Positions 34,042-49,672 of a stretch of DNA of 49,672 bases are shown here, one piece after another (position 1 is the first letter of the stretch; every line of letters begins with the position of its first letter). The DNA comes from Burkholderiales bacterium (GTDB taxonomy: Bacteria; Pseudomonadota; Gammaproteobacteria; Burkholderiales; Casimicrobiaceae). The stretch lies in the NCBI GenBank assembly GCA_025927765.1, contig JAICKU010000022.1:1-49672 (forward strand). Reading direction: 5' to 3'. A program made the translations under genes and the position numbers. The notes below the pieces were generated by a model, which was given only the letters and a program-made list of their open reading frames with translations, was not told where the DNA came from and did no database searches.

Positions 34042-34159
34042 TGGACTACCCTGCGCGCTTCGCGCGTCGGGCCTTGTTCGCGCTTGGGCCGGCCCGGCGC
34101 GCTCACGCGGCTTCCTGATCGATTGGATGCGGTGCGCGCCCGATTATAGAAGGCGAACG

Positions 34160-34187
34160 CGCCGATCGCGCTTGTGAGCGATCGGCG
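34160..34187. promoter_or_regulatory. Perfect 10-bp inverted repeat, operator candidate
   Basis: CGCCGATCGC (34160-34169) and GCGATCGGCG (34178-34187) flank an 8-nt spacer. The right arm covers the -35/spacer region of the predicted TRAP promoter, as expected for a repressor site. It could also fold in RNA as a leader hairpin. Confidence 0.5.
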
Positions 34188-34201
34188 ACTTTGTGTAGTA
34201 T
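34172..34201 (+). promoter_or_regulatory. Candidate promoter of the TRAP operon
   Basis: TTGTGA (34172-34177) and TAGTAT (34196-34201) with an 18-bp spacer; the start of transcription would be about 57 nt upstream of the TRAP binding-protein ATG. The match is modest. Confidence 0.35.
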
Positions 34202-34265
34202 GCGTGGCGAAGCGCTGCGCTCGAACGGCGCCCGCATACCGTTCCGCCCTCGGAGGAGACATCCC

Positions 34266-35270
34266 ATGGAAGCTCGTCATTCGGCCGCGCATCGCGCGAC
34301 CCGCCGCAGCGTGCTCGCTGCACTCGCCGTCGCGTCGTTCGGACTCGCCGTGCCCGCGCTCGCGCAAACCGAAATCAAGCTCGGCCACGTGGGTGAGCCC
34401 GGGTCGCTCTTCCAGAAGAGCGCCGACGAGTTCGCGAAACGCGCGAACGCAAAGCTCGCGGGCAAGGCGAAGGTCGTCGTCTACGGCTCGAGCCAATTGG
34501 GCGGCGACAAGGAGATGATCCAGAAGCTGAAGCTCGGCACGCTCGACATGGCGCTGCCGTCCACCGTGATGAGCTCCGAGGTCGACATTGCGGGTCTCTT
34601 CGAGATGCCGTACATCGTCAAGGACCGCGAGCACATGAAGCGGATCGAGAAGGACGTGTTCTGGCCGATGATCGAGCCCGCGATCGAGAAGAAGGGCCTG
34701 ACCGTGATCGCGGTGTGGGAAAACGGCACGCGCCACATCACGAACAACAAGCGACCGATCAAGGTACCGTCCGATCTTTCGGGCATCAAGCTGCGCGTGC
34801 CCGAGGGCAAGTGGCGCGTGAAGATGTTCCAGACCTACGGTGCGAATCCCAGCCCGATGAAGTTCAGCGAGCTCTTCACCGCGCTGCAGACCGGCGTGAT
34901 GGACGGCGAGGAGAATCCGCTGACGCAGATCTACTCGGCGAAGCTGCAGGAAGTGCAGAAGTACCTGTCGCTGTCCGGGCACGTGTACACGCCCGCGTAC
35001 CTGACCGTCGGCACCACGCGCTGGAAGACGCTGCCCGCCGACGTGCGCAAGGTGCTCGAGGACACGGCGAAGGAGACGCAGGCGTACGTGTACGAGACCG
35101 CCGCGAAGGACGAGGAAGACCTGCTCGGCAAGCTCAAGGCGGCCGGCATGCAGGTGAACGACGTCGACAAGGACGCGTTCGTCAAGGCGAGCGAGCCGAT
35201 CTACGACGAGTTCGCGAAGGAAGTGAACGGCGGCAAGGCGGCGATCGACAAGGCGAAGGCGCTGCGCTGA
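34266..35270 (+). CDS. TRAP transporter substrate-binding protein (DctP)
   Basis: A 334-residue periplasmic protein. The leader begins with TRRSVLAALAVASFG, a twin-arginine-like start, and is cleaved after ALAQ. Family motifs include EIKLGHVGEPGSLFQKSADE, SSQLGGDKEMIQKLKLGTLD, the carboxylate-binding Arg in LRVPEGKWR, and TALQTGVMDGEENPLTQIYS. The ATG follows a GGAGGAGA site. It delivers a carboxylate ligand to the DctQM channel encoded just downstream. Confidence 0.96.
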   Translation: MEARHSAAHRATRRSVLAALAVASFGLAVPALAQTEIKLGHVGEPGSLFQKSADEFAKRANAKLAGKAKVVVYGSSQLGGDKEMIQKLKLGTLDMALPSTVMSSEVDIAGLFEMPYIVKDREHMKRIEKDVFWPMIEPAIEKKGLTVIAVWENGTRHITNNKRPIKVPSDLSGIKLRVPEGKWRVKMFQTYGANPSPMKFSELFTALQTGVMDGEENPLTQIYSAKLQEVQKYLSLSGHVYTPAYLTVGTTRWKTLPADVRKVLEDTAKETQAYVYETAAKDEEDLLGKLKAAGMQVNDVDKDAFVKASEPIYDEFAKEVNGGKAAIDKAKALR

Positions 35271-35833
35271 TGCCGTCGACGACGATCGCGACGGCTGCCG
35301 AAGCGCCCGCGCGCCGCAACGCGCTCGACGTGTTCCGCGCGGGCTACACGCGCATGCTCGAGTGGCTCGTGTCGGCGCTGATGATCGTGCTGTTCGTCGA
35401 AGTGACCGCCGGCGTCGTGTTCCGCGCGATCGGCCAGTCGCTGATCTGGTACGACGAGATCGCGTCGGTGCTTCTCGCGTGGCTCACGTTCTACGGCGCG
35501 GCGCTCGCGTCGGCGAAGCGCGCGCACATCGGCTGCCCCGAGGTCGTCGACGCGATGCCGCCGCGTGCGCGGCGCGCGGTCAACATCGTCGCGCAACTGC
35601 TCGTGATCGCGTTCTTCGTGCTGCTCGGCAGCGTCGGCGCGTTGATCATGCCGATCCTCGCGACCGATGCGCTCGTCAGCGTCCCCGAGATCCCGATGAG
35701 CATCGTGCAGTCGGTGATCCCGATCTCGTCTGCGCTGATCATCGTCGCCGAGCTCTTGCACCTGATGGATCTCGTGCGCCGGCGTGCGCCCGCGGATAGC
35801 GGCGGACTGTCGTTGTCCGAAGGACTCCACTAA
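35270..35833 (+). CDS. TRAP transporter small permease (DctQ)
   Basis: A 187-residue membrane protein with four helices and the DctQ signature (RAIGQSLIWYDEIASVLLAW and the following ASAKRAHIG). Its ATG overlaps the TRAP binding-protein stop (TGATG at 35268-35272). It joins DctM to form the sodium-driven permease. Confidence 0.95.
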   Translation: MPSTTIATAAEAPARRNALDVFRAGYTRMLEWLVSALMIVLFVEVTAGVVFRAIGQSLIWYDEIASVLLAWLTFYGAALASAKRAHIGCPEVVDAMPPRARRAVNIVAQLLVIAFFVLLGSVGALIMPILATDALVSVPEIPMSIVQSVIPISSALIIVAELLHLMDLVRRRAPADSGGLSLSEGLH

Positions 35834-35854
35834 AGGCTCGACGGGGGAGTTCGC

Positions 35855-37138
35855 ATGACGATGCTCGGCCTTTTCGTGGCAGTGCTGCTGCTCGTGCTCA
35901 TCAACGTGCCGATCGCGGTATCGCTCGGCATCGTCGCCGTCACGGCGATGGTCGCGACGCACGGCACCGGCGTGCTGCCCAACCTCGCCGTCGTCACGTA
36001 CAACGGCGCGACGAGCTTCCCGCTGCTCGCGATCCCGCTCTTCATCCTCGCGGGCTCGATCATGAACGCGTCGGGCATCTCGCGACGGCTGATCGCGTTC
36101 GCGTCGTCGGTGTTCGGGTGGATCCGCGGCGGGCTCGCGCACGTGTCGATCGGCGCCTCGCTGTTCTTCGCGGAAATCTCCGGCTCGGCCGTAGCCGACG
36201 TCGCCGCACTCGGGTCGATCCTGATCCCGGGCATGAAGGCGAAGGGCTATCCGGCGAACCTCGCGGCCGCGGTCATGTCGTCGTCGGCCACGCTCGCGGT
36301 GATCATTCCGCCGTCGATCCCGATGATCCTGTACGCCGTGATGGCGGAAACGTCGGTCGTGCAGCTCTTCGTCGCGGGCATCGTGCCGGGAATCATCGGC
36401 GGCGTCGGGCTGATGGCGATGGCGTACTACTTCGCGCGCCGCTACGACCTCCCCCAGGAAGCGGCGTTCTCGTGGGGTCGCGTCGCCGCCACCGCCCGCG
36501 ACGCGGTGTGGGCGTTCCTGCTGCCGATCATCATTCTCGGGGGCATTTTCGGCGGCGTCGTCACGGCGACCGAAGGCGCCGCCCTCGCCGTCGTGGCTTC
36601 GCTCTTCGTGGGGCTCGTCATCTATCGCGAACTCGACATCGCCGAGCTGAAGCGCGCCGTCATCGAAGGCGGCGTGCAGACCGCGGTGGTGATGCTGCTC
36701 GTCGCGACGAGCGCGCTGCTCGGCACGTACCTCTCGGAGGTGCAGGCGCCGCAGCACCTCGCGCAGAGCGTCGCGCACTTCACGCAGAACAAGTGGCTCG
36801 TGCTCGCGCTCCTGAACGTGCTGTTCCTGCTGCTCGGCATGTTCCTGCATTCGGCGGCGGCGATCATCCTCGTGGTGCCCGTGGTGATGCCGCTCGTGCG
36901 GGCGGTGGGCATCGATCCGGTGCACTTCGGCCTGATCGTCACCGTCAACCTCGGCATCGGCCAGCAGACGCCGCCGGTCGCGAGCGTGCTGATGGTCGCG
37001 AGCGCGATCGCGAAGGCATCGATCTGGGACGTGACGCGCGTCAACGTGTATTTCATCGCGGTGCTCGTCGCGGTGCTGCTGCTCGTGACCTACGTGCCCG
37101 TGACCGGCATGGGTCTCGTCGACCTCTTCTATCGATAA
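35855..37138 (+). CDS. TRAP transporter large permease (DctM)
   Basis: A 427-residue permease with about 12 helices. Family strings include NVPIAVSLGIVAV, SFPLLAIPLFILAGSIMNAS, GGLAHVSIGASLFFAEISGS, MSSSATLAVIIPPSIPMILY and the repeat GIVTVNLGIGQQTPPV-like segment in the C-terminal half. The ATG has a GGGGGAG site. The next gene's ATG overlaps its stop (TAATG), so uptake and the CoA enzymes are coupled. Confidence 0.96.
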   Translation: MTMLGLFVAVLLLVLINVPIAVSLGIVAVTAMVATHGTGVLPNLAVVTYNGATSFPLLAIPLFILAGSIMNASGISRRLIAFASSVFGWIRGGLAHVSIGASLFFAEISGSAVADVAALGSILIPGMKAKGYPANLAAAVMSSSATLAVIIPPSIPMILYAVMAETSVVQLFVAGIVPGIIGGVGLMAMAYYFARRYDLPQEAAFSWGRVAATARDAVWAFLLPIIILGGIFGGVVTATEGAALAVVASLFVGLVIYRELDIAELKRAVIEGGVQTAVVMLLVATSALLGTYLSEVQAPQHLAQSVAHFTQNKWLVLALLNVLFLLLGMFLHSAAAIILVVPVVMPLVRAVGIDPVHFGLIVTVNLGIGQQTPPVASVLMVASAIAKASIWDVTRVNVYFIAVLVAVLLLVTYVPVTGMGLVDLFYR

Positions 37139-37929
37139 TGAATTCACTGGCAGGCGGCACCATCCTCGTCGATCGCGACGAAGCGATCGCGACCATCACG
37201 CTCAATCGCCCCGAGAAGCTCAACGCGCTGACCAAGGCGATGTGGGGCGGCCTCGGCGAAGCGGTCGATGCCCTCGGACGCGACGCGTCGGTGCGCTGCA
37301 TCCTCATCCGCGGTGCCGGCGAGCGCGCGTTCTCGCCGGGCAACGACATCGGCGAGTTCGCGCGCGAGCGCTCGAACAAGGCGCAGGCGATCGAGTATGG
37401 CCGCTTCATGCACACGACGGCGCACACGCTCGCCGCGTGCCCGGTGCCGATGGTCGCCGAGATCCACGGCATCTGCGTCGGCGGCGGCCTCGAGATCGCG
37501 TCGCTCTGCGATCTTCGCATCTGCGGCGCGTCGAGCCGCTTCGGCGCGCCGATCAAGAACCTGGGGCTCGTGATGGCGTACGCCGAAATGGGGCCGCTCG
37601 TGCGCCTCGTCGGCCCGAGCGTGGCGCTCGAGATCCTGCTCGAAGGGCGCATCTTCGACGCGGCCGAGGCGAAGGACAAGGGGCTCGTCACGCGCGTCGT
37701 GCCCGATGACCAGGTGAGCACGGAAGCGCGCGCCGCGGCGCTGCGCATCGCCGAAGGGGCACCCCTGACTGCGCGCTGGCACAAGAAGTTCGTGCAGCGG
37801 CTGCGCGATCCGGCGCCGATCAGCGACGCCGAAGCCGACGAATGCTTCGACGCCTTCGACACGGAGGACTTCCGCGAAGGCTACGCGGCGTTCCTCGCGA
37901 AGCGCAAGCCGGCGTTCCGAGGACGATGA
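37138..37929 (+). CDS. Enoyl-CoA hydratase/isomerase (crotonase) family
   Basis: A 263-residue crotonase. The oxyanion strings are AFSPGNDIGEF (64-74) and GICVGGGLEIASLCDLRICG (111-130). E119 sits at the first catalytic Glu position, but the second Glu of classical hydratases is replaced by Ile139 in FGAPIKNLG. The enzyme may therefore act as an isomerase, thioesterase, or atypical hydratase. It overlaps DctM upstream and the CoA-transferase downstream by an ATGA. Confidence 0.93.
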   Translation: MNSLAGGTILVDRDEAIATITLNRPEKLNALTKAMWGGLGEAVDALGRDASVRCILIRGAGERAFSPGNDIGEFARERSNKAQAIEYGRFMHTTAHTLAACPVPMVAEIHGICVGGGLEIASLCDLRICGASSRFGAPIKNLGLVMAYAEMGPLVRLVGPSVALEILLEGRIFDAAEAKDKGLVTRVVPDDQVSTEARAAALRIAEGAPLTARWHKKFVQRLRDPAPISDAEADECFDAFDTEDFREGYAAFLAKRKPAFRGR

Positions 37930-39170
37930 CGCCGCCGCAAGCGACTGCGCGCGCTGGCGCGCATCCTGGCCCGCTCGCCGGCATGCGCGTGCTCGAGCTC
38001 GCGCAGATCATGGCGGGTCCCACCTGCGGCATGCTGCTCGCGGACATGGGCGCCGACGTGATCAAGGTCGAGAAGCTGCCGGGCGGCGACGATGCGCGCG
38101 GCTATCGCGAGCCCCGCGTCAACGGCGTGTCGGCGCCGTTCATGATGCTGAACCGCAACAAGCGCGGCATGGCGCTGAATCTCAAGTCGGCGGCCGGCCG
38201 CGACGTGCTGTTGCGCATGGTGCGCGACGCCGACGTGCTGACGGAGAACTACCGTCGCGGCACGCTCGAGAAGCTCGGACTCGGCTACGACGTGCTGTCG
38301 TCGGTCAATCCCGGGCTCATCTACTGTGCCGTGTCCGGCTACGGACGCGACGGCCCGTTCGCGGACAAGGGTGGCTTCGACCTGATCGCGCAAGGGTTCG
38401 CCGGACTGATGTCGATCACCGGCGAACCGGGCGGGCCACCGGCCAAGGACGGCAACTCGGTCGCCGACATCAACGCGGGCATTCTGGCCGCGCTCGGCGT
38501 GTGTGCCGCCTACGCTCACAAACTGAAGACCGGCGAGGGGCAGGTGGTCGACACGTCGCTCATGGAGGCGGCGTTGCAGCAGACGTACTGGCACGCCGCC
38601 ATCTATTTCGCGACCGGCGTGTCACCCGGGCCCACCGGCTCGGCGCACCTGTTGACGGCACCGTATCAGGCGTATCGCGCGAAGGACGGCTGGATCAACA
38701 TCGGCGGCGCGAACCAGGCGAACTGGGAGCGCATCGCCGACGTGCTCGGCCATCCGGAATGGCGCGACGATCCGCGCTTCGTCACCAACTCGGCACGGAT
38801 GCAGAACATCGACGCGCTCGCCGACGCGATGAGCGCCGTGGTCGCCACGCGCACGAAAGCCGAGTGGATCGAGGCGTTCGATGCCGCGGGCGTGCCGGTG
38901 GGTCCCGTGCATTCGATCGGCGAAGCGCTCGAGCATCCGCAGACGCGCGCGCGCGGCATGGTCGTCGATCTCGTGCATCCACAGGCCGGTGCGACCAAGG
39001 CCGTGGGCTGCCCGGTGCATTTCTCGAAGACGCCCACGCGCATCGACCGGGCGGCGCCGATGCTGGGCGAGCACACGCGCGCGCTGTTGAGCGAGTACGG
39101 CTACGACGACGCAGCGATCGACGCGCTCGTCGCCGAAGGCGTCGTCGCGCCGGCCGACGGCGGGCGGTAG
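37926..39170 (+). CDS. Class III CoA-transferase (CaiB/BaiF family)
   Basis: A 414-residue enzyme that moves CoA between carboxylic acids. The opening LAGMRVLELAQIMAGPTCGM, ADMGADVIKVEKLPGGDDAR, the ENYRRGTLEKLGLGYDVL loop and catalytic Asp181 (VADINAG) are intact, and QVVDTSLMEAAL follows. Its ATG overlaps the crotonase stop. Together they would activate and modify the TRAP substrate. Its last 70 nt overlap the end of the convergent methyltransferase gene. Confidence 0.95.
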   Translation: MTPPQATARAGAHPGPLAGMRVLELAQIMAGPTCGMLLADMGADVIKVEKLPGGDDARGYREPRVNGVSAPFMMLNRNKRGMALNLKSAAGRDVLLRMVRDADVLTENYRRGTLEKLGLGYDVLSSVNPGLIYCAVSGYGRDGPFADKGGFDLIAQGFAGLMSITGEPGGPPAKDGNSVADINAGILAALGVCAAYAHKLKTGEGQVVDTSLMEAALQQTYWHAAIYFATGVSPGPTGSAHLLTAPYQAYRAKDGWINIGGANQANWERIADVLGHPEWRDDPRFVTNSARMQNIDALADAMSAVVATRTKAEWIEAFDAAGVPVGPVHSIGEALEHPQTRARGMVVDLVHPQAGATKAVGCPVHFSKTPTRIDRAAPMLGEHTRALLSEYGYDDAAIDALVAEGVVAPADGGR

Positions 39171-39898
39171 TCGTACACGCACTTCACGCCGTCCCAGCCG
39201 GCGTGAATGTCAGCGAGATCGATCTCGAACAGCGGCGTCAGGTGCGCGCCGAGCGACGCGCATTTGCCGGCGCGTACGTACGTTCCATCCGGGGCCTCGG
39301 CGAGGCTTCCGCCGGCCTGCAGCAGATAATCGCCGAACGTCAGCAGGCGGCCGTCGTGCCAGATCTCGACGAGGCGCGCGTACTCGCCCGGTAGCCTCCG
39401 CTCGACCTCGTCGGCGTCGATCAGCGCGATGCCCGACGGCGACAGGACGCGCATCGCCTCGCGCAGCACGCGCGCCTTGCCGGCGAAGTACTGCCAGGCG
39501 ACCTGGCTCACGATGAGGTCGAACGCATCGTCCGCGAACGGAAAGCCGCGCGACACGTCGGCGACGGCAATGGCGGGAAGGTGCGTGCCGGGAGCGATGC
39601 TGCGCCGCGCCGCTTCCCGGTGCTGGACGTCGCGATCGGCATCAGAACGAAGCTGCGTGATGCCGACCGTCTGCACGCGCTCCCCGTAGTGCGCAACGAG
39701 GTCGAGCAGCGCCATGCCGAAGCCGCAGCCCAGTTCGAGCACCCGTACGACGTCCTGGCGCGCGAGGCGCGCGTCGATCTCGGCGCGCACGTTACCGACG
39801 CGCCGCTCGAGGTCGGCGAGGCCGCGGCCGCGATGCTCGCGCTTGCGCTCGTAGCGCGACGCCGGATTTGCGGGGCGGGTGGTACGCATCGGCGCCAT
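39101..39898 (-). CDS. SAM-dependent methyltransferase, convergent with CoA-transferase
   Basis: A 265-residue class I methyltransferase: VLELGCGFGMALLDLVAHYG (motif I), TDAD-like VADVSRGFPFADDAFDLIVS, then QVAWQYFAGKARVLREAMRV and SPSGIALIDADE. It is divergent from the first glycosyltransferase gene, so it could decorate the glycan made by the neighbours. The last 23 residues (after DYRPPS) lie antisense to the CoA-transferase and are low-complexity, so this tail may be a recent extension. The start at 39898 or the ATG at 39889 are both possible. Confidence 0.85.
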   Translation of the reverse strand: MAPMRTTRPANPASRYERKREHRGRGLADLERRVGNVRAEIDARLARQDVVRVLELGCGFGMALLDLVAHYGERVQTVGITQLRSDADRDVQHREAARRSIAPGTHLPAIAVADVSRGFPFADDAFDLIVSQVAWQYFAGKARVLREAMRVLSPSGIALIDADEVERRLPGEYARLVEIWHDGRLLTFGDYLLQAGGSLAEAPDGTYVRAGKCASLGAHLTPLFEIDLADIHAGWDGVKCVYDYRPPSAGATTPSATSASIAASS

Positions 39899-40010
39899 TG
39901 TCCGCTATGCTAGCCGCCCGCGCTTGAGCGCGCCGCGCCGCCCCGGACACGCATTGGCCCGAAGGGCGGACGCTCCATTTCGCGGGACCGGCGATCGGAG
40001 GGAGGTTGTC

Positions 40011-41225
40011 GTGGACAGGCTCCATAACGCGCGCATCCTGATCTACAGCCACGACAGCTTCGGCCTCGGCCACCTGCGCCGCTGCCGCGCGATCGCCCAC
40101 GCGATCGTCGATCGCTACAAGGGCGTGTCGGTGCTGATCCTGTCCGGCTCGCCCATCATCGGCAGCTTCGACTTCCTGCCGCGCGTCGACTTCGTCCGCA
40201 TTCCCGGCGTGATCAAGCTCACGAACGGCGAATACCAGTCGCTCGGGCTGCACATCGACCTCGAGCAGACGATGGCGATCCGCATGGCGATCATCGAGCA
40301 GACGGCGCTGTCGTTTCGCCCCGATCTCTTCCTCGTCGACAAGGAGCCGCTCGGCCTCGAAGGCGAGGCCGCGCGCACGCTGCGCCTTCTGAAGGCGCGC
40401 GGCACGACGCTCGTGCTGGGACTTCGCGACATCATGGACGAGCCGTCGACGCTGCTTCGCGAATGGAAGCGCAAGAAGGTGCTGCCCGCGCTCGAGCATC
40501 TGTACGACGACATCTGGGTGTACGGCCTCGAGCACTTCGCCGACCCGCTGCATGGCATCGCGTGCCCGGCGTCGGTGCGCGGCAAGATGGTGTACACCGG
40601 CTACCTGCGGCGCAGCGTGCCGCGTCGCAAGACGAACGTGCCGCCCGTGAGCCGAGAGCCGTACGTGCTCGTGACGGTGGGCGGCGGCGACGACGGCATG
40701 GCGGTGCTCGATTGGGTGCTCGCCGCGTACGAACGCGACGCGTCGCTGCCGCTTTCCGCGGTGATCGTCACGGGCCCGTTCATGGCGCCCGAGCAGCAGC
40801 GCCAGTTCCGCGAGCGCGCGCGACGCCTCGGGCGCATCGAGGTGCTGACGTTCGACGCGAACCTGGAAGCGCTGATGGAAGGCGCGGTCGGCGTCGTCGC
40901 GATGGCGGGCTACAACACGTTCTGCGAGATCCTGTCGCTCGACAAGCGCGCCATCCTCGTGCCCCGCGTGCGGCCGCGCCGCGAGCAGGTCATGCGTGCG
41001 ATGCGCGCGGCGAGCATCGGCCTCGTGCGCACGCTCGATCCGGAACGCCCGCACGAAGCGTCGCGCATGACCGACGCGCTGCGCGAGCTCGCGTTGCAGC
41101 CTACGCCGTCGCAGCGGGGCGCGTCGCGGATGCTGAACGGCCTCGACGTGATCACCAACCTCGTCGGCGAGCGCGTGCGGCGGCCCGCGCGGCGGCGCAT
41201 GAACCTCTTCGCGCGCGCGAGCTGA
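40011..41225 (+). CDS. Predicted glycosyltransferase, COG4671-type (first copy)
   Basis: A 404-residue GT-B enzyme starting on GTG with a near-perfect GGAGGGAGG site. The N-terminal domain begins ARILIYSHDSFGLGHLRRCR, with the Gly-His-Leu-Arg-Arg nucleotide-sugar loop typical of this MurG-related group. The C-terminal domain has VTVGGGDDGMAVLDWV and VVAMAGYNTFCEILSLDKRAI, the donor-binding motif. No signal or membrane helix is present. It is followed 25 nt on by a diverged homologue. The linker between domains is about 16 residues, useful as a reference for the insertion in the second copy. An extension upstream is open but lacks similarity. Confidence 0.93.
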   Translation: MDRLHNARILIYSHDSFGLGHLRRCRAIAHAIVDRYKGVSVLILSGSPIIGSFDFLPRVDFVRIPGVIKLTNGEYQSLGLHIDLEQTMAIRMAIIEQTALSFRPDLFLVDKEPLGLEGEAARTLRLLKARGTTLVLGLRDIMDEPSTLLREWKRKKVLPALEHLYDDIWVYGLEHFADPLHGIACPASVRGKMVYTGYLRRSVPRRKTNVPPVSREPYVLVTVGGGDDGMAVLDWVLAAYERDASLPLSAVIVTGPFMAPEQQRQFRERARRLGRIEVLTFDANLEALMEGAVGVVAMAGYNTFCEILSLDKRAILVPRVRPRREQVMRAMRAASIGLVRTLDPERPHEASRMTDALRELALQPTPSQRGASRMLNGLDVITNLVGERVRRPARRRMNLFARAS

Positions 41226-41250
41226 CGTCAGGTCCCTGCGGAGCACTGCG

Positions 41251-42471
41251 ATGCCGTGCGTGATGATCTACGTCCAGCACCTGCTCGGCATCGGGCACCT
41301 GATGCGCGCGCGGCGCCTCGCCGAAGCGCTCGCGGACGCCGGCTTCGACGTGCATCTCGTGAGCGGCGGCATGCCGATCGGCGGGCGCCTGCCGCGCGGC
41401 GCGTGGACGATGCAGCTGCCGCCCATTCGCGTGAGCGACGCGAGCTTCACGCCGCTTCGCGACGCCGGGTTCACGCCCATCGACGATGCCTATCGCGAGC
41501 GCCGGCGCGACCTGCTGCTCGACGCGTACGCACGCATTCGACCCGACGCGCTGCTGTTCGAGACGTTTCCGTTCGGGCGCCGCTCGCTTCGCTTCGAGCT
41601 CGTGCCGCTGCTCGAGCGCGTCGACGCGACGCATCCGCGGCCGCTCGTCGTTTCGTCGATCCGCGAGATCCTGCAACTGCAGCAGAAGCCCGAGCGCGAG
41701 CGCGAAATGCTCGAATGGGCCGCGCGCTGGTTCGACGCGGTGCTCGTGCACGGCGATCCGCGCTTCGCGCGTTTCGACGACACGTATTCGTTCGTCGACG
41801 CGCTGGCGATTCCGGTCCACTACACGGGCTTCGTCGTCGACCGGAAAGCGGGGCCGGACTCTACTTTTCCGGCTACGCCGTCACGAAAAGCCGAGTCCGA
41901 CCCTGCTTTCCTCGAAGACCCTGCCTCGCGCGACGAGGTCGTCGTGTCCGCGGGCGGCGGCGGCGTGGGCGTGGAACTCCTCGCCGCCGCGCTCGCCGCG
42001 CAGGCGCATTCGCGGCTGTCGCACCTCACCTGGCGCGTGCTCGCGGGACCGAACGTGCGCGACGACGGCATGAAACGGCTGGAGGCGCTGCGCGGGCCGA
42101 ACGCCATCGTCGAACGCTCGCGCGCCGATTTCGCCTCGTTGCTGCGCCGCGCGTTCGTGTCGATTTCGCAGGCCGGCTACAACACGACGATGGACGTGAT
42201 GACGAGCGGCGCGCGACCGGTCGTCGCGCCGTTCACCGGCAATGGCGAGACCGAGCAGCGCGCGCGCGGCGAGCGGCTCGCACGGTTCGATCTCGCGGTC
42301 GTCGTCGACGACCGCACGCTCACCCCGCAGCGGCTCGCGGCGGCCGTCGACGAGGCGGCGTCGCGCACGTTCGCGCGCTGGGATTTCGCAAGCGACGGCG
42401 CCACGCGGACCGCGGAACTGTTGCACGAACTGCTCGCCCCGCGCGGCGGCCGGGCGAAAAGCGCAGCATGA
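41251..42471 (+). CDS. Predicted glycosyltransferase, COG4671-type (second copy)
   Basis: A 406-residue GT-B enzyme related to the gene just upstream: MIYVQHLLGIGHLMRARRLA at the N terminus, VVVSAGGGGVGVELLAAALA in the C-terminal domain and ISQAGYNTTMDVMTSGARPV as donor site. Between residues 198 and 220 it carries 23 extra codons that are a palindromic DNA element (41843-41911), so the interdomain linker is about 16 residues longer than in the first copy. The reading frame is intact through the element. Its stop overlaps the deacetylase ATG by four bases. Confidence 0.93.
   Translation: MPCVMIYVQHLLGIGHLMRARRLAEALADAGFDVHLVSGGMPIGGRLPRGAWTMQLPPIRVSDASFTPLRDAGFTPIDDAYRERRRDLLLDAYARIRPDALLFETFPFGRRSLRFELVPLLERVDATHPRPLVVSSIREILQLQQKPEREREMLEWAARWFDAVLVHGDPRFARFDDTYSFVDALAIPVHYTGFVVDRKAGPDSTFPATPSRKAESDPAFLEDPASRDEVVVSAGGGGVGVELLAAALAAQAHSRLSHLTWRVLAGPNVRDDGMKRLEALRGPNAIVERSRADFASLLRRAFVSISQAGYNTTMDVMTSGARPVVAPFTGNGETEQRARGERLARFDLAVVVDDRTLTPQRLAAAVDEAASRTFARWDFASDGATRTAELLHELLAPRGGRAKSAA
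41843..41911. repeat. 69-bp palindromic element inside the glycosyltransferase gene
   Basis: Arms GGAAAGCGGGGCCGGACTC (41843-41861) and GAGTCCGACCCTGCTTTCC (41893-41911) are inverted repeats, 17 of 19 matching. An inner pair CTTTTC/GAAAAG (41864-41869 and 41885-41890) and a small CGGC/GCCG tip complete a long hairpin. Length is 69 bp, exactly 23 codons, so the frame is kept. The GGGTCGGACTC word resembles the GGGGTC(A/C)GAGC words of the window-end repeats. It fits a REP-like or miniature mobile element. Confidence 0.82.
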
Positions 42472-43265
42472 GCGACGCGCAGGCCTTCGCTCCGCTCGTG
42501 CAGGAACTCGATCGCTGGCGGGCGGACGGACGCAGCGCGACGTTCTGGTGGCGCGACGACGACGCCTGCGTCGATTCGCCGGCGCTGTCACGACTGCTGT
42601 CGCTCGCGGCGCGATATCGCGTTCCGGTGGCGATCGCCGCGATACCCGCGGCCGTCGAGTCGTCGCTCGTCTCGGCGATCGGCGCCTGCGAGTGCGCGCT
42701 CGTCGTGCAGCACGGCTACGCGCATCGCAATCACGCAGCGAGCGGCGCGCGCAGTGCCGAGCTTGCCGAGGATCGCGCCGCCGATGCGACGCTCGCAGAA
42801 CTCGCGCGCGGCCGCCGCACGCTCGCAGCGGCGTTCGGCGATCGCTTCGCGACGATCCTCGTGCCCCCGTGGAACCGCATCGCGGATCACCTGCTGCCGC
42901 ATCTGCGCGACGAGGGCTACGCCGGGTTGTCGCGCTTCGGGCCGCGCGCATCGCCATTCGCCGCACCCGGCGTCCCCGAAGTCAACACGCACGTCGACCC
43001 GATCGCGTGGCGGCGTGGACGGGCGTTCGTCGGCATCGCCACGGCCGTCGCGCGCATCGTCGCGCATTTGCACGGGCGACGCGAGAAGTCGTGCGACGCC
43101 GGCGAGCCGACGGGGCTTCTCACGCATCACCTCGCGTTCGGCGACGACGCCTTCGCGTTCGTCGACGCGTTGCTCGACGTGATCGCGCGCCACGATGCCG
43201 CGCGCTGGCTCGATCCGCGCGACGCGTTCGTACTGCGCGAGCTCACTTGCGCCCGATGCGCATGA
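42468..43265 (+). CDS. Polysaccharide deacetylase-family protein
   Basis: A 265-residue NodB-like enzyme. The metal and catalytic Asp cluster is D30-D-D32 (WWRDDDACVD), and the metal-binding pair is H82-x3-H86 in QHGYAHRNH. Later strings PPWNRIADHLLPHLRDEGY and GLLTHHLAFGDDAF match motifs 3-5 of the family. No signal peptide, so it would act on an intracellular glycan or lipid-linked precursor. ATGA overlap with the second glycosyltransferase indicates a three-gene unit. The last 23 nt overlap the convergent methyltransferase gene. Confidence 0.9.
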   Translation: MSDAQAFAPLVQELDRWRADGRSATFWWRDDDACVDSPALSRLLSLAARYRVPVAIAAIPAAVESSLVSAIGACECALVVQHGYAHRNHAASGARSAELAEDRAADATLAELARGRRTLAAAFGDRFATILVPPWNRIADHLLPHLRDEGYAGLSRFGPRASPFAAPGVPEVNTHVDPIAWRRGRAFVGIATAVARIVAHLHGRREKSCDAGEPTGLLTHHLAFGDDAFAFVDALLDVIARHDAARWLDPRDAFVLRELTCARCA

Positions 43266-43896
43266 ACCGCGTGTAGCGGCGCATCGGCCGCGCGCCTTCG
43301 TACAGCACCTCGCGCATCGGCGCCTGCGCGCCGAACGCGGCGAGCGAGGGCACGCAGTTCACGTGCTCGGCGCACGCGACGTAATCGTTCGTCTGCAGCA
43401 CGACGAGCTGGCCGCCGGGCACGCGCGCGTACCAGCGGTCGAAGTCGACGACGTGCTCGCAGCTCGTGTTGACGACGAGCGCGAAGCGTTCCGCGGCGTA
43501 GTCGAGCTCGCGCATGTCGGCGGTCCGCGCCTCGAACCGGCCGGCCGCAGCGTGCGTCGCGTTGAGGGCGCGCGCCAGGGTCTCGCAGCGCGGATCGATG
43601 TCGACGCTGACGATGCGTCCGATCGCGAAGCGCGGATCGCGCAGCAGCAGCGCGGACAGCGCGCCGATCCAGCCGCCGAGCACGAGCACGTCCGTAAAGC
43701 GCGTGCCCGCGCTTTGCGCCAGTGCATCGATGAGCCAGCGCTTGCTCGCCATCTGGTTCGCATTCAGCGCCGCGCCGAGGCGCGGCTCGTCGTGGCGTGC
43801 AATGGTGGCGACGAGGTCGCGCAGGAACGGCCGTTCGTCGAGGACGGCGAGGCCCTCGAGGATGTCCCGATAGAACTCGTCGTCGAAATGCGTCAT
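43243..43896 (-). CDS. Class I methyltransferase of phage-like type
   Basis: A 217-residue protein with SAM motif DVLVLGGWIGALSALLL, acidic strand VSVDIDPRCE, and the strings NANQMASKRWLIDAL, NTSCEHVVDFDRWY and QTNDYVACAEHVNC. From memory, the GGW(I/Y)G, NTSCEH and E-H-(I/V)-N-C combination occurs in methyltransferases of cyanophages and other large viruses; this needs a database check. It is divergent from the cyclic-nucleotide-binding gene across 33 nt. The 3' end overlaps the deacetylase gene. Confidence 0.82.
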   Translation of the reverse strand: MTHFDDEFYRDILEGLAVLDERPFLRDLVATIARHDEPRLGAALNANQMASKRWLIDALAQSAGTRFTDVLVLGGWIGALSALLLRDPRFAIGRIVSVDIDPRCETLARALNATHAAAGRFEARTADMRELDYAAERFALVVNTSCEHVVDFDRWYARVPGGQLVVLQTNDYVACAEHVNCVPSLAAFGAQAPMREVLYEGARPMRRYTRFMRIGRK

Positions 43897-43929
43897 AGTG
43901 TGCCGGTCATCCGACGGCGGAGGCGTCGC

Positions 43930-44424
43930 GTGGACGTCGTGAAGGAAGCGGAAATGCTCGGCAAGGTGCCGCTCTTCGGCGGGATGTCCTCCGCCGAGCT
44001 CAAGCTGCTCGCGTTCACGAGCCAGGTGATCTGCTTCGCGCACGGCGAAACGCTGATGCGCCAGGGCGAACGCGCCGATTGCGCGTACGTGATCCTCGAG
44101 GGTCGTGCGGAGGTGATTGCGGAGACGCCGAACGCGAGCTTCGTCGTCGCCGAGCTCGGACCGAACGCGGTGCCGGGGGAGATCGGCGTGCTCACGGATG
44201 CCCCGCGCACGGCGACGGTGCGGGCGAAGGGCCCGCTGCGCGCCCTGCGCATCTCGCCCGACGTGTTCGTGCGCCTTGCGACCAGTCGTCCCGAGCGCGC
44301 GCTGTACGTGATGCGCCAGCTGTCGGCCCATATCGCGAACGACCTCCACGCCATCGCATCGCTCAAGGAAGCGCTGGAGAAGGTGCAGGCCGAGATGGCC
44401 GAGCTTCGCGCCGCGCAGCACTGA
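43930..44424 (+). CDS. Stand-alone cyclic nucleotide-binding protein
   Basis: A 164-residue protein with one cNMP-binding beta-roll: VPLFGGMSSAELKLLAF at the start, P82-G-E84 and R93-T-A95 in the phosphate-binding cassette (PGEIGVLTDAPRTATV), and an amphipathic C-terminal helix (140-162) suited to dimerise. No HTH or enzyme domain follows, so it is not a CRP-type regulator. The start is a GTG with CGGAGG six bases upstream. Placed in a glycan locus, it may regulate a partner such as the ABC exporter or a glycosyltransferase by cAMP or cGMP. The 3' end overlaps the convergent glycosyltransferase by 62 nt. Confidence 0.85.
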   Translation: MDVVKEAEMLGKVPLFGGMSSAELKLLAFTSQVICFAHGETLMRQGERADCAYVILEGRAEVIAETPNASFVVAELGPNAVPGEIGVLTDAPRTATVRAKGPLRALRISPDVFVRLATSRPERALYVMRQLSAHIANDLHAIASLKEALEKVQAEMAELRAAQH

Positions 44425-45502
44425 CGACGTCGCGGAGCAGTGCGTCGAGCTTCGCCGCGGCGCCGACGATGTCGTGGTGCGCGAAGGCGCGCGCGCTGGC
44501 CGCGTGCGCCATCCGCGCGCGCAGCGCTGCATCGACGATCACACGGCGCACGGCATCCGCGAACGCAGCATCGTCGAGCGGCGTGAGCAGTCCCGACCGT
44601 CCGTCGTCCACGATTGCGGCGACACCCGGCGAACGGCCGGCGACGACCGGCAGGCCGGCCGCCTGCGCTTCGACGAACGCCATGCCGATCGCCTCATCCA
44701 CGGCCGGCCACACGAAGAGATCGGCGTCGCGCAGTGTGGCGATCACGGCCGTGCGGGGCAGGGCGCCACGCCACTCGACGCGATCGCCGAGGGGCGCGAG
44801 CGCCGCCTCGACGTCGGCGCGCGCCGGGCCGTCGCCGACGACGACGAGCGAGAACGCGAGATCGTCGAGCGCTGCGAGCGCGCGTCCGAGCATCCGGTAC
44901 GACGCGAGCTTCGCGCGCTGGCGCATCATCGCGACGGTGACGAGGCGAACTTCATCGCGCTGCCGCACGCGCTCGCGGGCGTAGGCGGCGACGTCGACGA
45001 ACGGGCCGAGCCACAGATCGCGCGCATCACCGCGTACGCGGCGCACCTCGGCGATGTCGGCGGGATTGAGATGCACGATCGCGTCGGCGTCGCGGATCGC
45101 GTCGCGCGCGAGCGCGTAGCCCACCGACCATGTGCCGGTCGCCTGCCGCGGGGCGAGCGACGCCTCGGCGACGACGTACGGAATCGACACCGCGTGCGCG
45201 ACGTGCGGCCCCACGCAATCGGGCGCCTTGTGGTGAAGGTGGTAGGTGAACCACACGTCGGGGCGCCCTGCGGACGCGTATCGGGCGGCGAGGCCCCTCG
45301 CATCGCGTTCGCCCTGCGCGCGATGGCCGTGCTGCACACGCGCGTCGCCGTCGCGATCGAACGTGCGAAGGCGCGAGGCGAGTGTCACCTCGTGACCGGC
45401 GAGCGCGAGCGCACGCATCAGCGCACGTGCGATCTCGCGATCGCCCGACGGCGTCGGATGATCCGGCGGCTTCATCGGCGCGTAGAAGGAGATCTTCATC
45501 AT
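44363..45502 (-). CDS. GT4-type glycosyltransferase
   Basis: A 379-residue GT-B enzyme. It begins MKISFYAPMKPPDHPTPSGD, and the C-terminal domain has VVVGDGPARADVEAAL, VEWRGALPRTAVIATL, and the EX7E catalytic motif in DEAIGMAFVEAQAAGLPVVA. The ATG overlaps the stop of the upstream glycosyltransferase (ATGA at 45499-45502). The last 20 residues (REARPSRPAPSPALP) lie over the end of the cNMP-binding gene and are low-complexity. Acts in the cytoplasm on a lipid-linked or soluble acceptor. Confidence 0.92.
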   Translation of the reverse strand: MMKISFYAPMKPPDHPTPSGDREIARALMRALALAGHEVTLASRLRTFDRDGDARVQHGHRAQGERDARGLAARYASAGRPDVWFTYHLHHKAPDCVGPHVAHAVSIPYVVAEASLAPRQATGTWSVGYALARDAIRDADAIVHLNPADIAEVRRVRGDARDLWLGPFVDVAAYARERVRQRDEVRLVTVAMMRQRAKLASYRMLGRALAALDDLAFSLVVVGDGPARADVEAALAPLGDRVEWRGALPRTAVIATLRDADLFVWPAVDEAIGMAFVEAQAAGLPVVAGRSPGVAAIVDDGRSGLLTPLDDAAFADAVRRVIVDAALRARMAHAASARAFAHHDIVGAAAKLDALLRDVVSAARREARPSRPAPSPALP

Positions 45503-46767
45503 GCAACGAACGCGTTGAGCCTCATCGCGAGGCGATCGACGCCGGCGTCGAGCGAGAAGCAGCGCGTGGTCCGCTCGCAGCCGGCGGTGCCGAGGGCGAC
45601 ACGAATCACCGGGTCGGTGATCAGCCGGTCGAGCGCCTCGGCGAGAAGGATCGGGGCGCGCGGCGGCACGAGCACGCCGGTCTCGCCGTCGACGATCAGC
45701 TCGGGAATGCCCGACACGTTCGTCGATACGCAGGCCAGCGCCTGGCTCTGCGCTTCGAGCAGCACGTTCGGCAATCCGTCGCGATCGCCATCGTCGCCGA
45801 TCCGGCACGGCAGCACGAAGAGGTCCGCGTCGCGGTAGGCGGCGAGCACGTCGTCGTGCGCGCGCGCGCCCTCCCAGCGAATGCGCGCGGTGATGCCGAG
45901 GCGCCGCGCCTGCTGCTGCAATGCCGCGAGCCGCGGCCCGTCGCCGATGTGCACGAGCTGCCAGTGGCGATCCCCGGGCAGCCGCGCGAGCGCATCGAGC
46001 AGGTCGTCGAAGCCCTTCTTCTCGACCGCGCGGCCCACGGCGAGCAGCCGCACCGGCGACGACGCATCGCGTCCGTCGCGTGCGCCGCGCGCGTGCGGAT
46101 GCGGCGGAAAGCGCGTGGCGTCGATGCCGTGATAGACGAGGTCGACGCGATCGTCGGCGCACAGCGCGCGCAGGTGCTGCGCGTTGCACGCCGTGCACGT
46201 CGTCGCGAAGGCCGACGCGGCGAGCTTCTCCCGCTTCTCCCACTCCGGCGTGGTCCAGATGTCCTTGGCGTGGGCCGACACGCTCCAGGTGAGTCCGCGC
46301 AGCAGCGCCGCGTATCGGGCGACCGACGCCGGCGTATGCAGGAAGTGCGCGTGCAGATGCACGACGTCGTTCGGCAGCTCCGACGCGAGCACGAGCGCCT
46401 GGCCGAAGCGGCGCACGCGGCTTCGCGTGCGGTCGCGGCAGAGGTCGCGCGCAAACGCGGCCAGCGTGGCGCGGTAGCCGGGGAGCCGCCGTGCAGCACG
46501 CCAGCCGCGCAGCACGCGCCACGGTCCGCGGTGCAGGTACTCGGGCAGGTAGTTCACGCTGGCCCGGATGCGCGCGTGCAGCGGATGCGTCGCCGGGTCC
46601 GACGGCCTGCGCAACGAAAAGAGCGCAAGTGCGAGACCGCGCGCCTCGAGCGCGTGGAGCTCCTGCGCGATGAACGTTTCCGACAGGCGCGGATAGCCCT
46701 TCAGCACCACGCCGATCACGCGGTCGGCGCGTCGTGCAGGCGGTGCTGCGCGGCCTTCGATACGCAT
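45499..46767 (-). CDS. GT4-type glycosyltransferase, colanic-acid-like
   Basis: A 422-residue enzyme. It starts GVVLKGYPRLSETFIAQELH, the typical opening of the WcaL/exopolysaccharide glycosyltransferase group. Then come HLHAHFLHTPASVARYAALL, VYHGIDATRFPP, AVGRAVEKKGFDDLLDALAR and the EX7E string DGLPNVLLEAQSQALACVST. The ATG at 46765-46767 was preferred over an in-frame upstream ATG that would overlap the exporter's promoter region. First gene of a two-gene unit divergent from the ABC exporter. Confidence 0.93.
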   Translation of the reverse strand: MRIEGRAAPPARRADRVIGVVLKGYPRLSETFIAQELHALEARGLALALFSLRRPSDPATHPLHARIRASVNYLPEYLHRGPWRVLRGWRAARRLPGYRATLAAFARDLCRDRTRSRVRRFGQALVLASELPNDVVHLHAHFLHTPASVARYAALLRGLTWSVSAHAKDIWTTPEWEKREKLAASAFATTCTACNAQHLRALCADDRVDLVYHGIDATRFPPHPHARGARDGRDASSPVRLLAVGRAVEKKGFDDLLDALARLPGDRHWQLVHIGDGPRLAALQQQARRLGITARIRWEGARAHDDVLAAYRDADLFVLPCRIGDDGDRDGLPNVLLEAQSQALACVSTNVSGIPELIVDGETGVLVPPRAPILLAEALDRLITDPVIRVALGTAGCERTTRCFSLDAGVDRLAMRLNAFVA

Positions 46768-46883
46768 GCGAACGACCTCGGCGCAGGGCGCCCGAGTGGA
46801 GACGACGGGCGCGCTGATGCTACCATCGTCGAGCCGCGTCGAGCGGGCGGAGGAGCTTCGGCGCGGCCACATCACGGGAAGGC

Positions 46884-49517
46884 ATGGACCGGTCCCTCTT
46901 TCGCTACATCCTCCGCTACACGTGGCGCGACCAGCTCGCGCTGCTGGCGTTCACGCTGGTCAGCTTCCCGCTGATCTACGTGAACCTCGAGCTGCCGAAG
47001 AAGATCGTCAACGAGGCGCTCCAGGGCAAGCACATTCCGAAGGAGATTCTCGGCGTCCACGTCACGCAGGTCTCCTACCTGATGGCGTTGTCGCTGCTGC
47101 TGCTGATCCTCATCACCATCAACGGCGCGCTCAAGTACGTGATCAACGTCTACGCGGGCGTCGTCGGCGAGCGCACGCTGCGCAGGCTTCGCCACGACCT
47201 GTATTGGCAGGTGATGCGCTTCCCGCTCGCGCACTTCAAGACGACGTCGCCGGGCGAGATCATCCCGATGATCGTCGCCGAAACCGAGCCGGTCGGCGGG
47301 TTCATCGGCGAATCGTTCGTCACGCCCATCTTCCAGGGCGGCCTGCTCGCCACGTACGTGCTCTTCATCTTCATGCAGGATCCGTGGCTCGGGCTCGCGG
47401 CGATCGCGCTGTGGCCGCCGCAGATGTACCTGATACCGAAGCTGCAGCGCAGGATCAACCTGCTCGCGAAGGAGCGCGTGCAGACCGCGCGGCAGCTTTC
47501 CGATCGCATCGGCGAGACGGTGGTCGCCGCATCGGAAATCCGCGGCAACGACACCACCGAGTTCGAGCGCGCCGACGTGAGCGACCGGCTCGGCCACATC
47601 TTCGCGATCCGCTACGAGATCTACCGGCGCAAGTTCTTCGTCAAGTTCCTGAACAACTTCCTCGCGCAGATCACGCCGTTCTTCTTCTATTCGGTCGGCG
47701 GCTACCTCGTGATCCGCGGCAACCTGTCGCTCGGCGCGCTCGTCGCGGTGCTCGCCGCGTACAAGGACATCCTGGCGCCGTGGAAGGAGATCCTGAACTG
47801 GTACGCGACCAAGGAGGACGTCCGCATCAAGCACGAGCAGATCGTCTCGCAGTTCGAGCCGCCGAACCTCGTCGACCGCAAGCTCCTCGAGAACGCACCC
47901 GAGACGATTCCGCCGCTTGCCGGCGACATCGCGGCCAAGGACCTGTCGTTTTCGGAGAATGGCATCACGAATCGCGTCGACCGGCTGTCGTTCCGCATCC
48001 CGCGCGGCCAGCATGTCGCGCTCGTCGGCAATGGCAACAGCGGCCGCGACGATCTCGTCCACCTGCTCGCCCGCCTCGACCTGCCGAGCGGCGGACGGCT
48101 CGACGTCGCCGGCATCAGCTTCACCGACGTGCACCAGGCGGTGCCGGGCCGGCGCATCGCGTACGCCGCGCAGAACGCGCACGTGTTCAGCGGTACGGTC
48201 GCGCACAACCTGTTTTATGCGCTGAAGCACCGGCCGGTGCACCCCGCCCCCAGCGACGAGGCGGGCGCGCGCCTCTCCGAGCGGCGCGTGCGCGACGCGC
48301 TCGCAGCCGGCAACAGCGCCTACGACATCCGCGCCGACTGGATCGACTACGACGGGGCCGGCGTCTCCGATCGCGCGGAACTGACGGCGCTCGCCGAGCG
48401 CACGCTCGCCATCGTCGACATGCGGCGGGAGGTGATGGGGTTCGGTTTCGCGAGTTCGACCGATCCCGCGCGGCATCCGGCGCTCGCCGAGAAGTCGGTC
48501 GCCGCCCGGTCGCTCGTGCGGGCACGCGTGGCACGCGACCAGCTCGCGGGCAGCGTCGAGTTCTTCGAGCGCGATGCGTACTTCGACAACATGAGCGTCG
48601 CCGAGAACCTGCTGTTCGGTACGCCGAGGCGCGCCGAATTCCAGCCGGCGGTACTCGCCCACAACCCGGCGATCGTGGAGCTGTTGCGCGAGGTCCGGCT
48701 CTTGGACGACCTGTACCAGGCGGGCGCGAAGGTCGCCGAGCTTATGGTCGAGATCTTCGCCGACGTGGCCCCCGACAGCGATCTGTTCGAGCAATACAGC
48801 TTCATCAGCGCCGAGGATCTTCCCGAGTTCCGCGACATCGTGATGCGTCTCGGCAAGCGAGGGCTCGGCGCGATCTCGCCGCAGGACAAGGCGCGTCTGC
48901 TCGCACTCACCTTCCGGCTCGTCCGCGCGCGGCATCGCCTCGGCATCATGGAGGGGTCGATGCAGGCGCGACTCGTCGATGCGCGCAACGAGTTCCGGCG
49001 CCGCTACCACGACCGGGGCGTCGTCGAGTTCTTCGACCCCGATCGCTTCAGTCCGGCGCTGTCCGTGCAGGACAACATGCTGTTCGGCCGCGTCGGGTTC
49101 GACCAGGCGAGTGCGCAATCGCGAATCAGCGCGCTGGTGCGCGACATCGCGTCCGAGGAGGGCATGTGCGACGCGCTGGTCGAGCTCGGGCTCGAATACG
49201 ACGTCGGCTCGTCGGGCTCGCGGCTGTCGTATTCGGAGCGGCAGCGGCTCGCGATTGCGCGCGCACTTCTCAAGAACGCGGACATCCTCGTGTTCAACGA
49301 GCCCACGTCGGGACTCGATCCCGGCACCGAGCTGCGCGTGCTGCGTCACGTCCTCGAGTGGGCGAAAGGACGCACGGTCATCTGGTCGCTGTCGCGGCCC
49401 GAGCTCGCACGCGAGTTCGACCGCGTGCTGGTGTTCGCCGACGGCCGGCTGGTCGAGGAGGGGCGCTTCGACGAGCTCGAGCGCGAGGGGAAGGCGCTGG
49501 CGCAGCTCGTCGCGTAA
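46884..49517 (+). CDS. Large ABC exporter with degenerate nucleotide-binding domain
   Basis: An 877-residue half-transporter. Residues 1-300 form an ABC type IV membrane domain (helices near 16-34, 62-80, 150-168, 255-275). The nucleotide-binding domain starts at about 345 but is odd. Walker A reads G382-NGNSG-R388-D389, with Lys to Arg and Ser/Thr to Asp. The signature is LSYSE (781-785), Walker B ends in Asn805-Glu806 (ILVFNEP), and the H-loop His is replaced by Ser (IWSLSRPE). Between Q430 and the signature lie about 350 residues, against fewer than 100 normally, with the post-Q-loop motif repeated (GTVAHNLFY, MSVAENLLFG, LSVQDNMLFG). The frame is unbroken, so this is not decay by frameshift. 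It probably exports the glycan of this locus. Confidence 0.9.
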   Translation: MDRSLFRYILRYTWRDQLALLAFTLVSFPLIYVNLELPKKIVNEALQGKHIPKEILGVHVTQVSYLMALSLLLLILITINGALKYVINVYAGVVGERTLRRLRHDLYWQVMRFPLAHFKTTSPGEIIPMIVAETEPVGGFIGESFVTPIFQGGLLATYVLFIFMQDPWLGLAAIALWPPQMYLIPKLQRRINLLAKERVQTARQLSDRIGETVVAASEIRGNDTTEFERADVSDRLGHIFAIRYEIYRRKFFVKFLNNFLAQITPFFFYSVGGYLVIRGNLSLGALVAVLAAYKDILAPWKEILNWYATKEDVRIKHEQIVSQFEPPNLVDRKLLENAPETIPPLAGDIAAKDLSFSENGITNRVDRLSFRIPRGQHVALVGNGNSGRDDLVHLLARLDLPSGGRLDVAGISFTDVHQAVPGRRIAYAAQNAHVFSGTVAHNLFYALKHRPVHPAPSDEAGARLSERRVRDALAAGNSAYDIRADWIDYDGAGVSDRAELTALAERTLAIVDMRREVMGFGFASSTDPARHPALAEKSVAARSLVRARVARDQLAGSVEFFERDAYFDNMSVAENLLFGTPRRAEFQPAVLAHNPAIVELLREVRLLDDLYQAGAKVAELMVEIFADVAPDSDLFEQYSFISAEDLPEFRDIVMRLGKRGLGAISPQDKARLLALTFRLVRARHRLGIMEGSMQARLVDARNEFRRRYHDRGVVEFFDPDRFSPALSVQDNMLFGRVGFDQASAQSRISALVRDIASEEGMCDALVELGLEYDVGSSGSRLSYSERQRLAIARALLKNADILVFNEPTSGLDPGTELRVLRHVLEWAKGRTVIWSLSRPELAREFDRVLVFADGRLVEEGRFDELEREGKALAQLVA

Positions 49518-49522
49518 TTCGG

Positions 49523-49599
49523 AGTACTTCGGGGTCAGAGCTGTAAGTATTCGCCTGCGCGTAGTACTTCGGGGTCAGAGCTGTAAGTATTCGCCTGCG
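49523..49599. repeat. Two direct repeats of 37 bp, period 40
   Basis: The 37-base unit starting AGTACTTCGGGGTCAGAGC occurs at 49523-49559 and 49563-49599 with no mismatch, separated by 3 bases. It continues CTGTAAGTATTCGCCTGCG. This is the same family as the repeat at 110-146. Confidence 0.9.
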
Positions 49600-49624
49600 A
49601 ATACTTACAGCTCGGACCCCGAAG
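49567..49624. repeat. 58-bp palindrome, end-of-window element
   Basis: Arms of 28 bp with a single mismatch surround a 2-nt centre. The inner 16 bp (AGCTGTAAGTATTCGC, 49579-49594) is perfect, and the outer 12 pairs CTTCGGGGTCAG with CGGACCCCGAAG. A further GACCCCGAAGTTA follows at 49630-49642. It begins 49 nt after the ABC exporter stop and could also stop transcription. Confidence 0.88.
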
Positions 49625-49654
49625 TTACTGACCCCGAAGTTAGCGATACGGGTC

Positions 49655-49671
49655 GGCTGCGTCGCGCAGCC
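49655..49671. repeat. Short hairpin at the window end
   Basis: GGCTGCG and CGCAGCC form a perfect 7-bp stem around TCG. It lies outside the 58-bp palindrome and may be part of a further repeat cut by the window edge. Confidence 0.5.
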
Positions 49672-49672
49672 C

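Follow-up and report, generated by a model that had tools for sequence, protein, structure and literature searches.

A family of ABC exporters with degenerate ATP sites, a constant insert in the nucleotide-binding domain, and a cNMP-binding partner

The window, a stretch of 49,672 nucleotides of a draft contig from a member of the Burkholderiales, carries near its end a gene for a degenerate type-I ABC exporter, in which a transmembrane domain (TMD) precedes a nucleotide-binding domain (NBD) enlarged by an insert. Upstream lie genes for glycosyltransferases and other enzymes, together with a gene for a protein with a cNMP-binding domain (cNBD). The cNBD partner and the glycosyltransferase cluster are new, being absent from an earlier sequence-only reading of the window. 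The genes are as follows.

39879–41225, + strand: MurG-like glycosyltransferase with a GT28 C-terminal domain
41251–42471, + strand: second MurG-like glycosyltransferase
42459–43265, + strand, start approximate: deacetylase-like neighbor (putative name), 53% identical over 247 residues to the copy at locus L103
43243–43896, − strand: SAM-methyltransferase-like gene, its Pfam match below the cut-off
43930–44424, + strand: cNBD protein of ~164 residues (PF00027), GTG start assumed, alternative GTG at 43939; phosphate-binding motif GEIGVLTDAPRTA
44363–45502, − strand: GT4-type glycosyltransferase
45499–46767, − strand: GT4-type glycosyltransferase, divergent from the exporter gene
46884–49517, + strand: degenerate type-I ABC exporter of 877 residues (TMD, then NBD with insert), with Pfam ABC_membrane and ABC_tran above cut-off

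No Pfam family matched the relative of the deacetylase-like gene at L103:677–1465. Elsewhere in the window, at 14269–19555, a PAS-GGDEF-EAL protein adjoins a family 2 glycosyltransferase frame of ~1000 residues, and the two are perhaps a c-di-GMP-controlled polysaccharide synthase. Just past the exporter stop, at 49520–49672 and near the contig end, lies a REP-like palindromic repeat made of two direct 40-nt copies with inverted arms of 29–34 nt. A 16-base core of this repeat turns up at 80 places genome-wide, several of them near contig starts, and not once in the reversed control; the repeat probably broke the assembly at the contig end. An Rfam scan of the window returned nothing at the gathering threshold.

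The exporter frame is intact, as had been claimed, with 877 residues and no internal stops. Pfam locates ABC_membrane (PF00664) at residues 65–291, with 60.6 bits against a cut-off of 28, and ABC_tran (PF00005), with 62.3 bits against 25, in two stretches of which the better is 707–809; this is the TMD-then-NBD architecture of a type-I exporter. The motif substitutions listed in the sequence-only reading are borne out, R388 and D389, N805, LSYSE and S837 all being read directly in the translation, and the protein lacks the canonical set of Walker A, Walker B, LSGGQ and H-loop. Four of ten scored ATPase positions are canonical: the Q-loop Gln Q430, S782, E806 and D812. Retention of the catalytic Glu of Walker B (E806) and of the D-loop Asp (D812) is an addition to the earlier account. 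The features within the gene, all on the + strand, are these.

46884–47855: transmembrane domain, residues ~1–324, containing the PF00664 match
48027–48050: Walker A GNGNSGRD (382–389, from the translation), with Lys replaced by Arg and Ser/Thr by Asp
48192–48218: first post-Q-loop motif, GTVAHNLFY (437–445), from the translation and the repeat comparison
48228–49019: insert, residues ~449–712, matching no Pfam family
48501–48731: repeat unit B, residues 540–616, containing MSVAENLLFG (570–579) at 48591–48620
48978–49196: repeat unit C, residues 699–771, containing LSVQDNMLFG (726–735) at 49059–49088
49224–49238: signature LSYSE (781–785, from the translation), replacing LSGGQ
49284–49301: Walker B ILVFNE (801–806, from the translation), with Asp replaced by Asn and the catalytic Glu retained
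49392–49394: Ser837 of the H-loop WSLSRP (from the translation), replacing His

As controls we took five other exporter loci in this genome (L002, L004, L005, L006 and L007), which comprise four distinct genes, as L002 and L006 are one. All five match the patterns for canonical Walker A, LSGG[QE] and Walker B; the H-loop pattern is matched in only two. None of the best 25 of 182 NCBIfam models comes near its cut-off for the window exporter. The MsbA model TIGR02203 stands at the top of these 25, with 187.9 bits against a cut-off of 602, and the protein does not qualify as an MsbA equivalog. For the Sinorhizobium meliloti homologue the best 25 of 26 models are likewise far from cut-off.

Between Q430 and L781 there are 350 residues, the figure that had been taken as the size of the insertion. 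Because canonical exporters of the same genome have 54–56 residues between Q-loop and signature, the net insert is ~295 residues. No Pfam family reaches its cut-off with the insert sequence, and solved chains give E 0.65 at best. Similarities to Kdo/WaaP (E 0.13) and to ABCC3 (E 0.65) were too weak for use. The insert is repetitive. The three motifs previously pointed out are real, and their asparagines, N442, N575 and N731, are kept in 84, 86 and 86 of 86 aligned family members. Units B and C align with each other in hhalign over 73 columns with a score of 85.6 (E 7.8e-16), as compared with 8.7–14.9 in 20 column-shuffled controls, and both carry SVxxNxLFG, a motif normally found after the Q-loop. 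Alignment of the units with the segment that follows the true Q-loop covers 21–22 columns, with E values of 1.3e-5 (probability 80%) and 2.2e-6 (probability 89%). The suspected duplication of part of the NBD is thus borne out for units B and C, whereas support for a third copy, at the true Q-loop, is weak. AlphaFold gave a mean pLDDT of 43.6 for the full protein from four input sequences; for the NBD part the best of five models reached 60.9 and the others 44–48. Foldseek with that best NBD model retrieved exporter NBDs at low TM-scores, and the insert itself is not reliably modeled.

Relatives of the exporter are widespread. Of 385 alphaproteobacterial genomes sampled, 130 give profile matches, spread over 86 of 276 genera. 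Most matches span the full length; others are partial, split or truncated where a contig stops. The insert has been verified in the 86 aligned members. The sampled class appears to be Alphaproteobacteria, since the match G495:C2:124961–127558 shares coordinates with CP131057.1 (Hyphomicrobiales). A phylum-wide sample gave matches in 27 of 398 genomes. Among 300 genomes of the Burkholderiales there are five, the window's own and four of one other family, and within the window's family the matches (6 of 64 genomes) all fall in the window's genus (6 of 22 genomes, one match being truncated by the end of its contig), with none in the 42 genomes of other genera. Beyond the phylum, coverage consists of a plasmid collection and one pattern-based scan of genome contigs; 262 plasmid records match the Rhodospirillaceae homologue at E 1e-60, 144 of them from Rhizobium and 80 from Sinorhizobium. 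In a quick TMD tree, with outgroups on long branches, the five betaproteobacterial sequences form one clade (SH-aLRT 100) nested among alphaproteobacterial sequences, and they group with L086, L087 and L091 at SH-aLRT 97. Because the beta clade sits inside the alphaproteobacterial sequences, the gene was probably gained by transfer in the window's lineage.

A decayed or misassembled gene can be given almost no weight. The draft contig does end 155 bases past the stop codon, and the match in one of the 130 positive genomes (G647) holds a stop, so that single broken copies may exist. Full-length, intact orthologues are nevertheless found at 55–74% identity within the genus and at 44% in alphaproteobacteria, and they rule out a pseudogene or misassembly at the window itself. 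Pairwise comparison of five genes gave whole-gene dN/dS (NG86) of 0.28 to 0.82, so that none of the 10 pairs reaches 1, values that are compressed and unreliable between distant pairs at a GC3 of 0.87–0.98. Far from being confined to the window, the insert is present in every one of 86 aligned members (128 collected sequences before removal of near duplicates), with a Q-loop-to-signature spacing of 325–424 residues (median 352). The earlier preference for a specialized transporter over a pseudogene therefore stands.

Across these 86 members the ATP site is degenerate throughout. None is canonical at all ten scored positions; eight members reach the maximum of six, and three have no canonical residue at all. 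The Walker A Lys is present in 47/86 and the adjacent Ser/Thr in 9/86, with Asp or Glu in its place in 63/86. The Q-loop Gln is kept in 15 members, the H-loop His in 24, the signature Ser in 43 and its first and second Gly in 8 and 14, and the Asp and Glu of Walker B in 15 and 47, respectively. Of the four most catalytic residues (K, Q, E and H), none remains in 28 members and all remain in two. Homologues thus restore single canonical residues, such as the Lys and the His, but in no case all ten. The structural residues behave otherwise: the D-loop Asp (D812) is found in 78/86, the X-loop glycines G775 and G778 in 83/86 and 85/86, R793 in 84/86, and E125 and E133, which we take to lie in the first intracellular loop, in 86/86 each. 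The TMD is the best conserved region, with a mean conservation of 0.67 as against 0.52–0.56 in the other three. Judged from the alignment, the scaffold is maintained while the catalytic residues are not, and the recurrent acidic residue in Walker A favors a settled new state over random decay.

Hydrolysis of ATP may be reduced or lost in the family. Since the Lys and the Glu each persist in 47/86 and two members keep all of K, Q, E and H, some members may still hydrolyze ATP. One could then suppose that the protein remains an ATP-driven exporter with unusual working sites and that the cNBD is a simple regulator, the more so as the window exporter keeps E806 and D812 and the NBD is only moderately less conserved than the TMD. 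We consider this unlikely in view of the scarcity of the signature glycines and the Walker A Ser/Thr, and because Rhizobium-type members and most members fused to a cNBD are without nearly all catalytic residues.

Neighborhoods were compared at 65 loci (the window, L010, L011, L048–L050 and 59 fetched stretches), a subset picked by hand from the hits; where a fetched stretch stops short, its neighbors may be undercounted. At all 65, a cNBD resembling the window's or the S. meliloti one is adjacent to, near or fused with the exporter, and at 64 by a stricter cut-off, with L132 missing. From the background density (83 PF00027 matches in ~47 Mb of 10 of these genomes), about two of 65 twenty-kb loci would be expected to contain such a domain by chance. 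At 55 loci the cNBD lies downstream on the same strand, its match starting −10 to 625 nt from the exporter end (median 32); at four, all betaproteobacterial and including the window, it lies 2.4–6.8 kb upstream on the same strand; and at six it is fused to the exporter C-terminus. Ten tree rows labeled as fused, in six of which the cNBD was tested, form one clade with SH-aLRT 88. The canonical count out of ten in the six fused members is 0 in L128 and L130, 1 in L132, 2 in L131, 3 in L126 and 6 in L135.

The cNBD partner does not have the make-up of a CRP/FNR regulator, which would combine cNMP-binding and DNA-binding domains: Pfam finds PF00027 only, and no HTH or DNA-binding domain, in the cNBD proteins of the window, of S. 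meliloti and of one other locus. The phosphate-binding cassette pattern is matched by 52 of 64 cNBDs, one of them (L097) at the wrong place. By eye, most of the 12 misses have a variant of GE...PR type; L139 is among the few that lack it. Adjacency alone does not imply that the cNBD touches the exporter; a direct cNBD–NBD contact may occur.

In most loci the cluster looks built for making a glycan or glycolipid. Related glycosyltransferases occur at 54 of the 65 loci (GT28-type at 53, GT4-type at 54, with queries cross-matching within each type). None is present in the fetched stretch of the other 11 (L099, L116, L121, L126, L128, L130–L133, L135 and L137), among which are all six fused forms; the glycan link is therefore not universal, and these loci may serve another substrate or have its genes elsewhere. 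Deacetylase-like genes are found at 43 loci, histidine phosphatases at 45, methyltransferases at 8 and cyclase relatives at only 8, the last of which counts against cyclic-nucleotide gating. In Mesorhizobium WSM1497 the surroundings of the exporter and cNBD (L048 1–1452 and 16883–18223) include a DUF3095 gene and two genes for adenylate/guanylate cyclases, a possible source of ligand. Mesorhizobium, Rhizobium leguminosarum and S. meliloti share the order glycosyltransferases, exporter, cNBD; in Mesorhizobium and S. meliloti a methyltransferase is interposed. Another related ABC ATPase is found at 41 loci and is of the two-NBD importer type at 31, often at the edge of the stretch. Near the cluster this is an ATPase of peptide-importer type, as at L103 15051–17267 and L104 17723–19501; in S. 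meliloti and Rhizobium the glycosyltransferases are preceded by genes for two permeases, an ATPase and a substrate-binding protein.

These neighborhoods also bear on whether the exporter pairs, as a heterodimer, with a canonical half encoded at another place. Exporters with degenerate sites, both heterodimeric and full-length, are familiar and have been reviewed (PMC7756269). In the present family, however, the Walker motifs and the signature are lost jointly, so that both composite ATP sites would be affected, and a second exporter-type frame lies beside the gene at only one locus (L132) by the family profile, with none in window positions 33001–49672. A search of the loci with canonical TMDs gave no second exporters; that search is weak, having recovered the family itself at only 13 of 65 loci. 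A heterodimer is thus rather improbable. Alternatively, the protein might be an ABC-derived membrane sensor or scaffold that transports nothing. SUR proteins would be comparable in principle, and catalytic loss, a large insert, a signal-binding partner and an enzyme cluster at most loci are all in keeping with such a role. A sensor would hardly account for a TMD that is the best conserved region of the protein, or for the invariance of the two acidic loop residues, and we regard this role as distinctly unlikely.

If catalysis is weakened or absent and no partner half lies beside the gene, the conformation of the NBDs must be set in some other way, and because the constant neighbor is a ligand-binding cNBD, we propose a signal-gated flippase. 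The exporter would, in most lineages, move a glycosyltransferase-made glycoconjugate, its NBDs would no longer act as an ordinary ATPase, and the gate would be set by the cNBD; we give this reading, tentatively, a probability of about 40%. Exporters of the MsbA and PglK fold flip lipids and lipid-linked sugars. By the proposed mechanism these conserved exporters are probably homodimers that move a product, probably lipid-linked, across the inner membrane. The pair of NBDs, enlarged by the inserted repeat module, would constitute a mechanical gate, set by the cNBD partner upon its binding of a cyclic nucleotide or similar ligand. Most members may have little or no affinity for ATP, and the net drive for transport could come from a product gradient, from assembly outside the membrane, or from residual use of ATP. 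The stronger form, in which ATP hydrolysis has been given up altogether and NBDs with a duplicated Q-loop/helical module serve as a cNBD-operated gate, making the protein a ligand-gated glycolipid flippase and not an ATP pump, is doubtful.

ABC transporters are defined by coupling to ATP, and CFTR and SUR in animals are ABC transporters rebuilt into gated forms. A conserved family lacking the usual residues of the ATP site, while retaining structural residues and a partner that binds a signal, would show an ABC transporter rebuilt as a gated channel or flippase. The family also points to a system of surface-glycan-like character in rhizobia and other bacteria. The ligand of the cNBD need not be a cyclic nucleotide: in HetC, a peptidase-containing exporter of Nostoc, the cNBD reportedly binds ppGpp in vitro but not cAMP (PMC10986499).

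No paper that we recognized as treating this exporter family was found in a literature coverage outside which most subscription journals fall. The nearest system by description is in S. meliloti. The operon of MsbA2 (SMb21191) resembles the present loci in having an exporter and glycosyltransferases on pSymB, but the two are different genes: the family member of strain 1021 lies at ~841.7–844.4 kb and the msbA2 operon fragment at 938.3 kb (PMC3687685), ~94–97 kb apart. The strain 1021 record carries no annotated features in the two stretches inspected, and no locus tag is assigned to the family member here. SMb20813 is called the msbA homologue of S. meliloti in PMC10945364, and it may or may not be the family member. 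SMb20811 (PMC6180224) was of no help in identifying that member.

Among characterized systems, HetC offers a likeness in that a cNBD works with an ABC exporter (PMC10986499). Its cNBD is N-terminal, it includes a peptidase domain, and its catalytic Glu is essential; in the present family the ATP site is degenerate and the cNBD is either a separate protein or C-terminal. Degenerate ATP-site residues are shared with TM287/288, TmrAB and the ABCC family (PMC7756269). In contrast to heterodimers of the TM287/288 type, the two Walker motifs and the signature are all degenerate within a single gene, and only 1 of 65 loci shows another exporter frame beside it. With MsbA (TIGR02203) and PglK (NF050066) the family shares TMD and NBD homology, and the X-loop and D-loop residues are kept; unlike these, it has a ~295-residue insert and not one fully canonical ATP site among 86 members.
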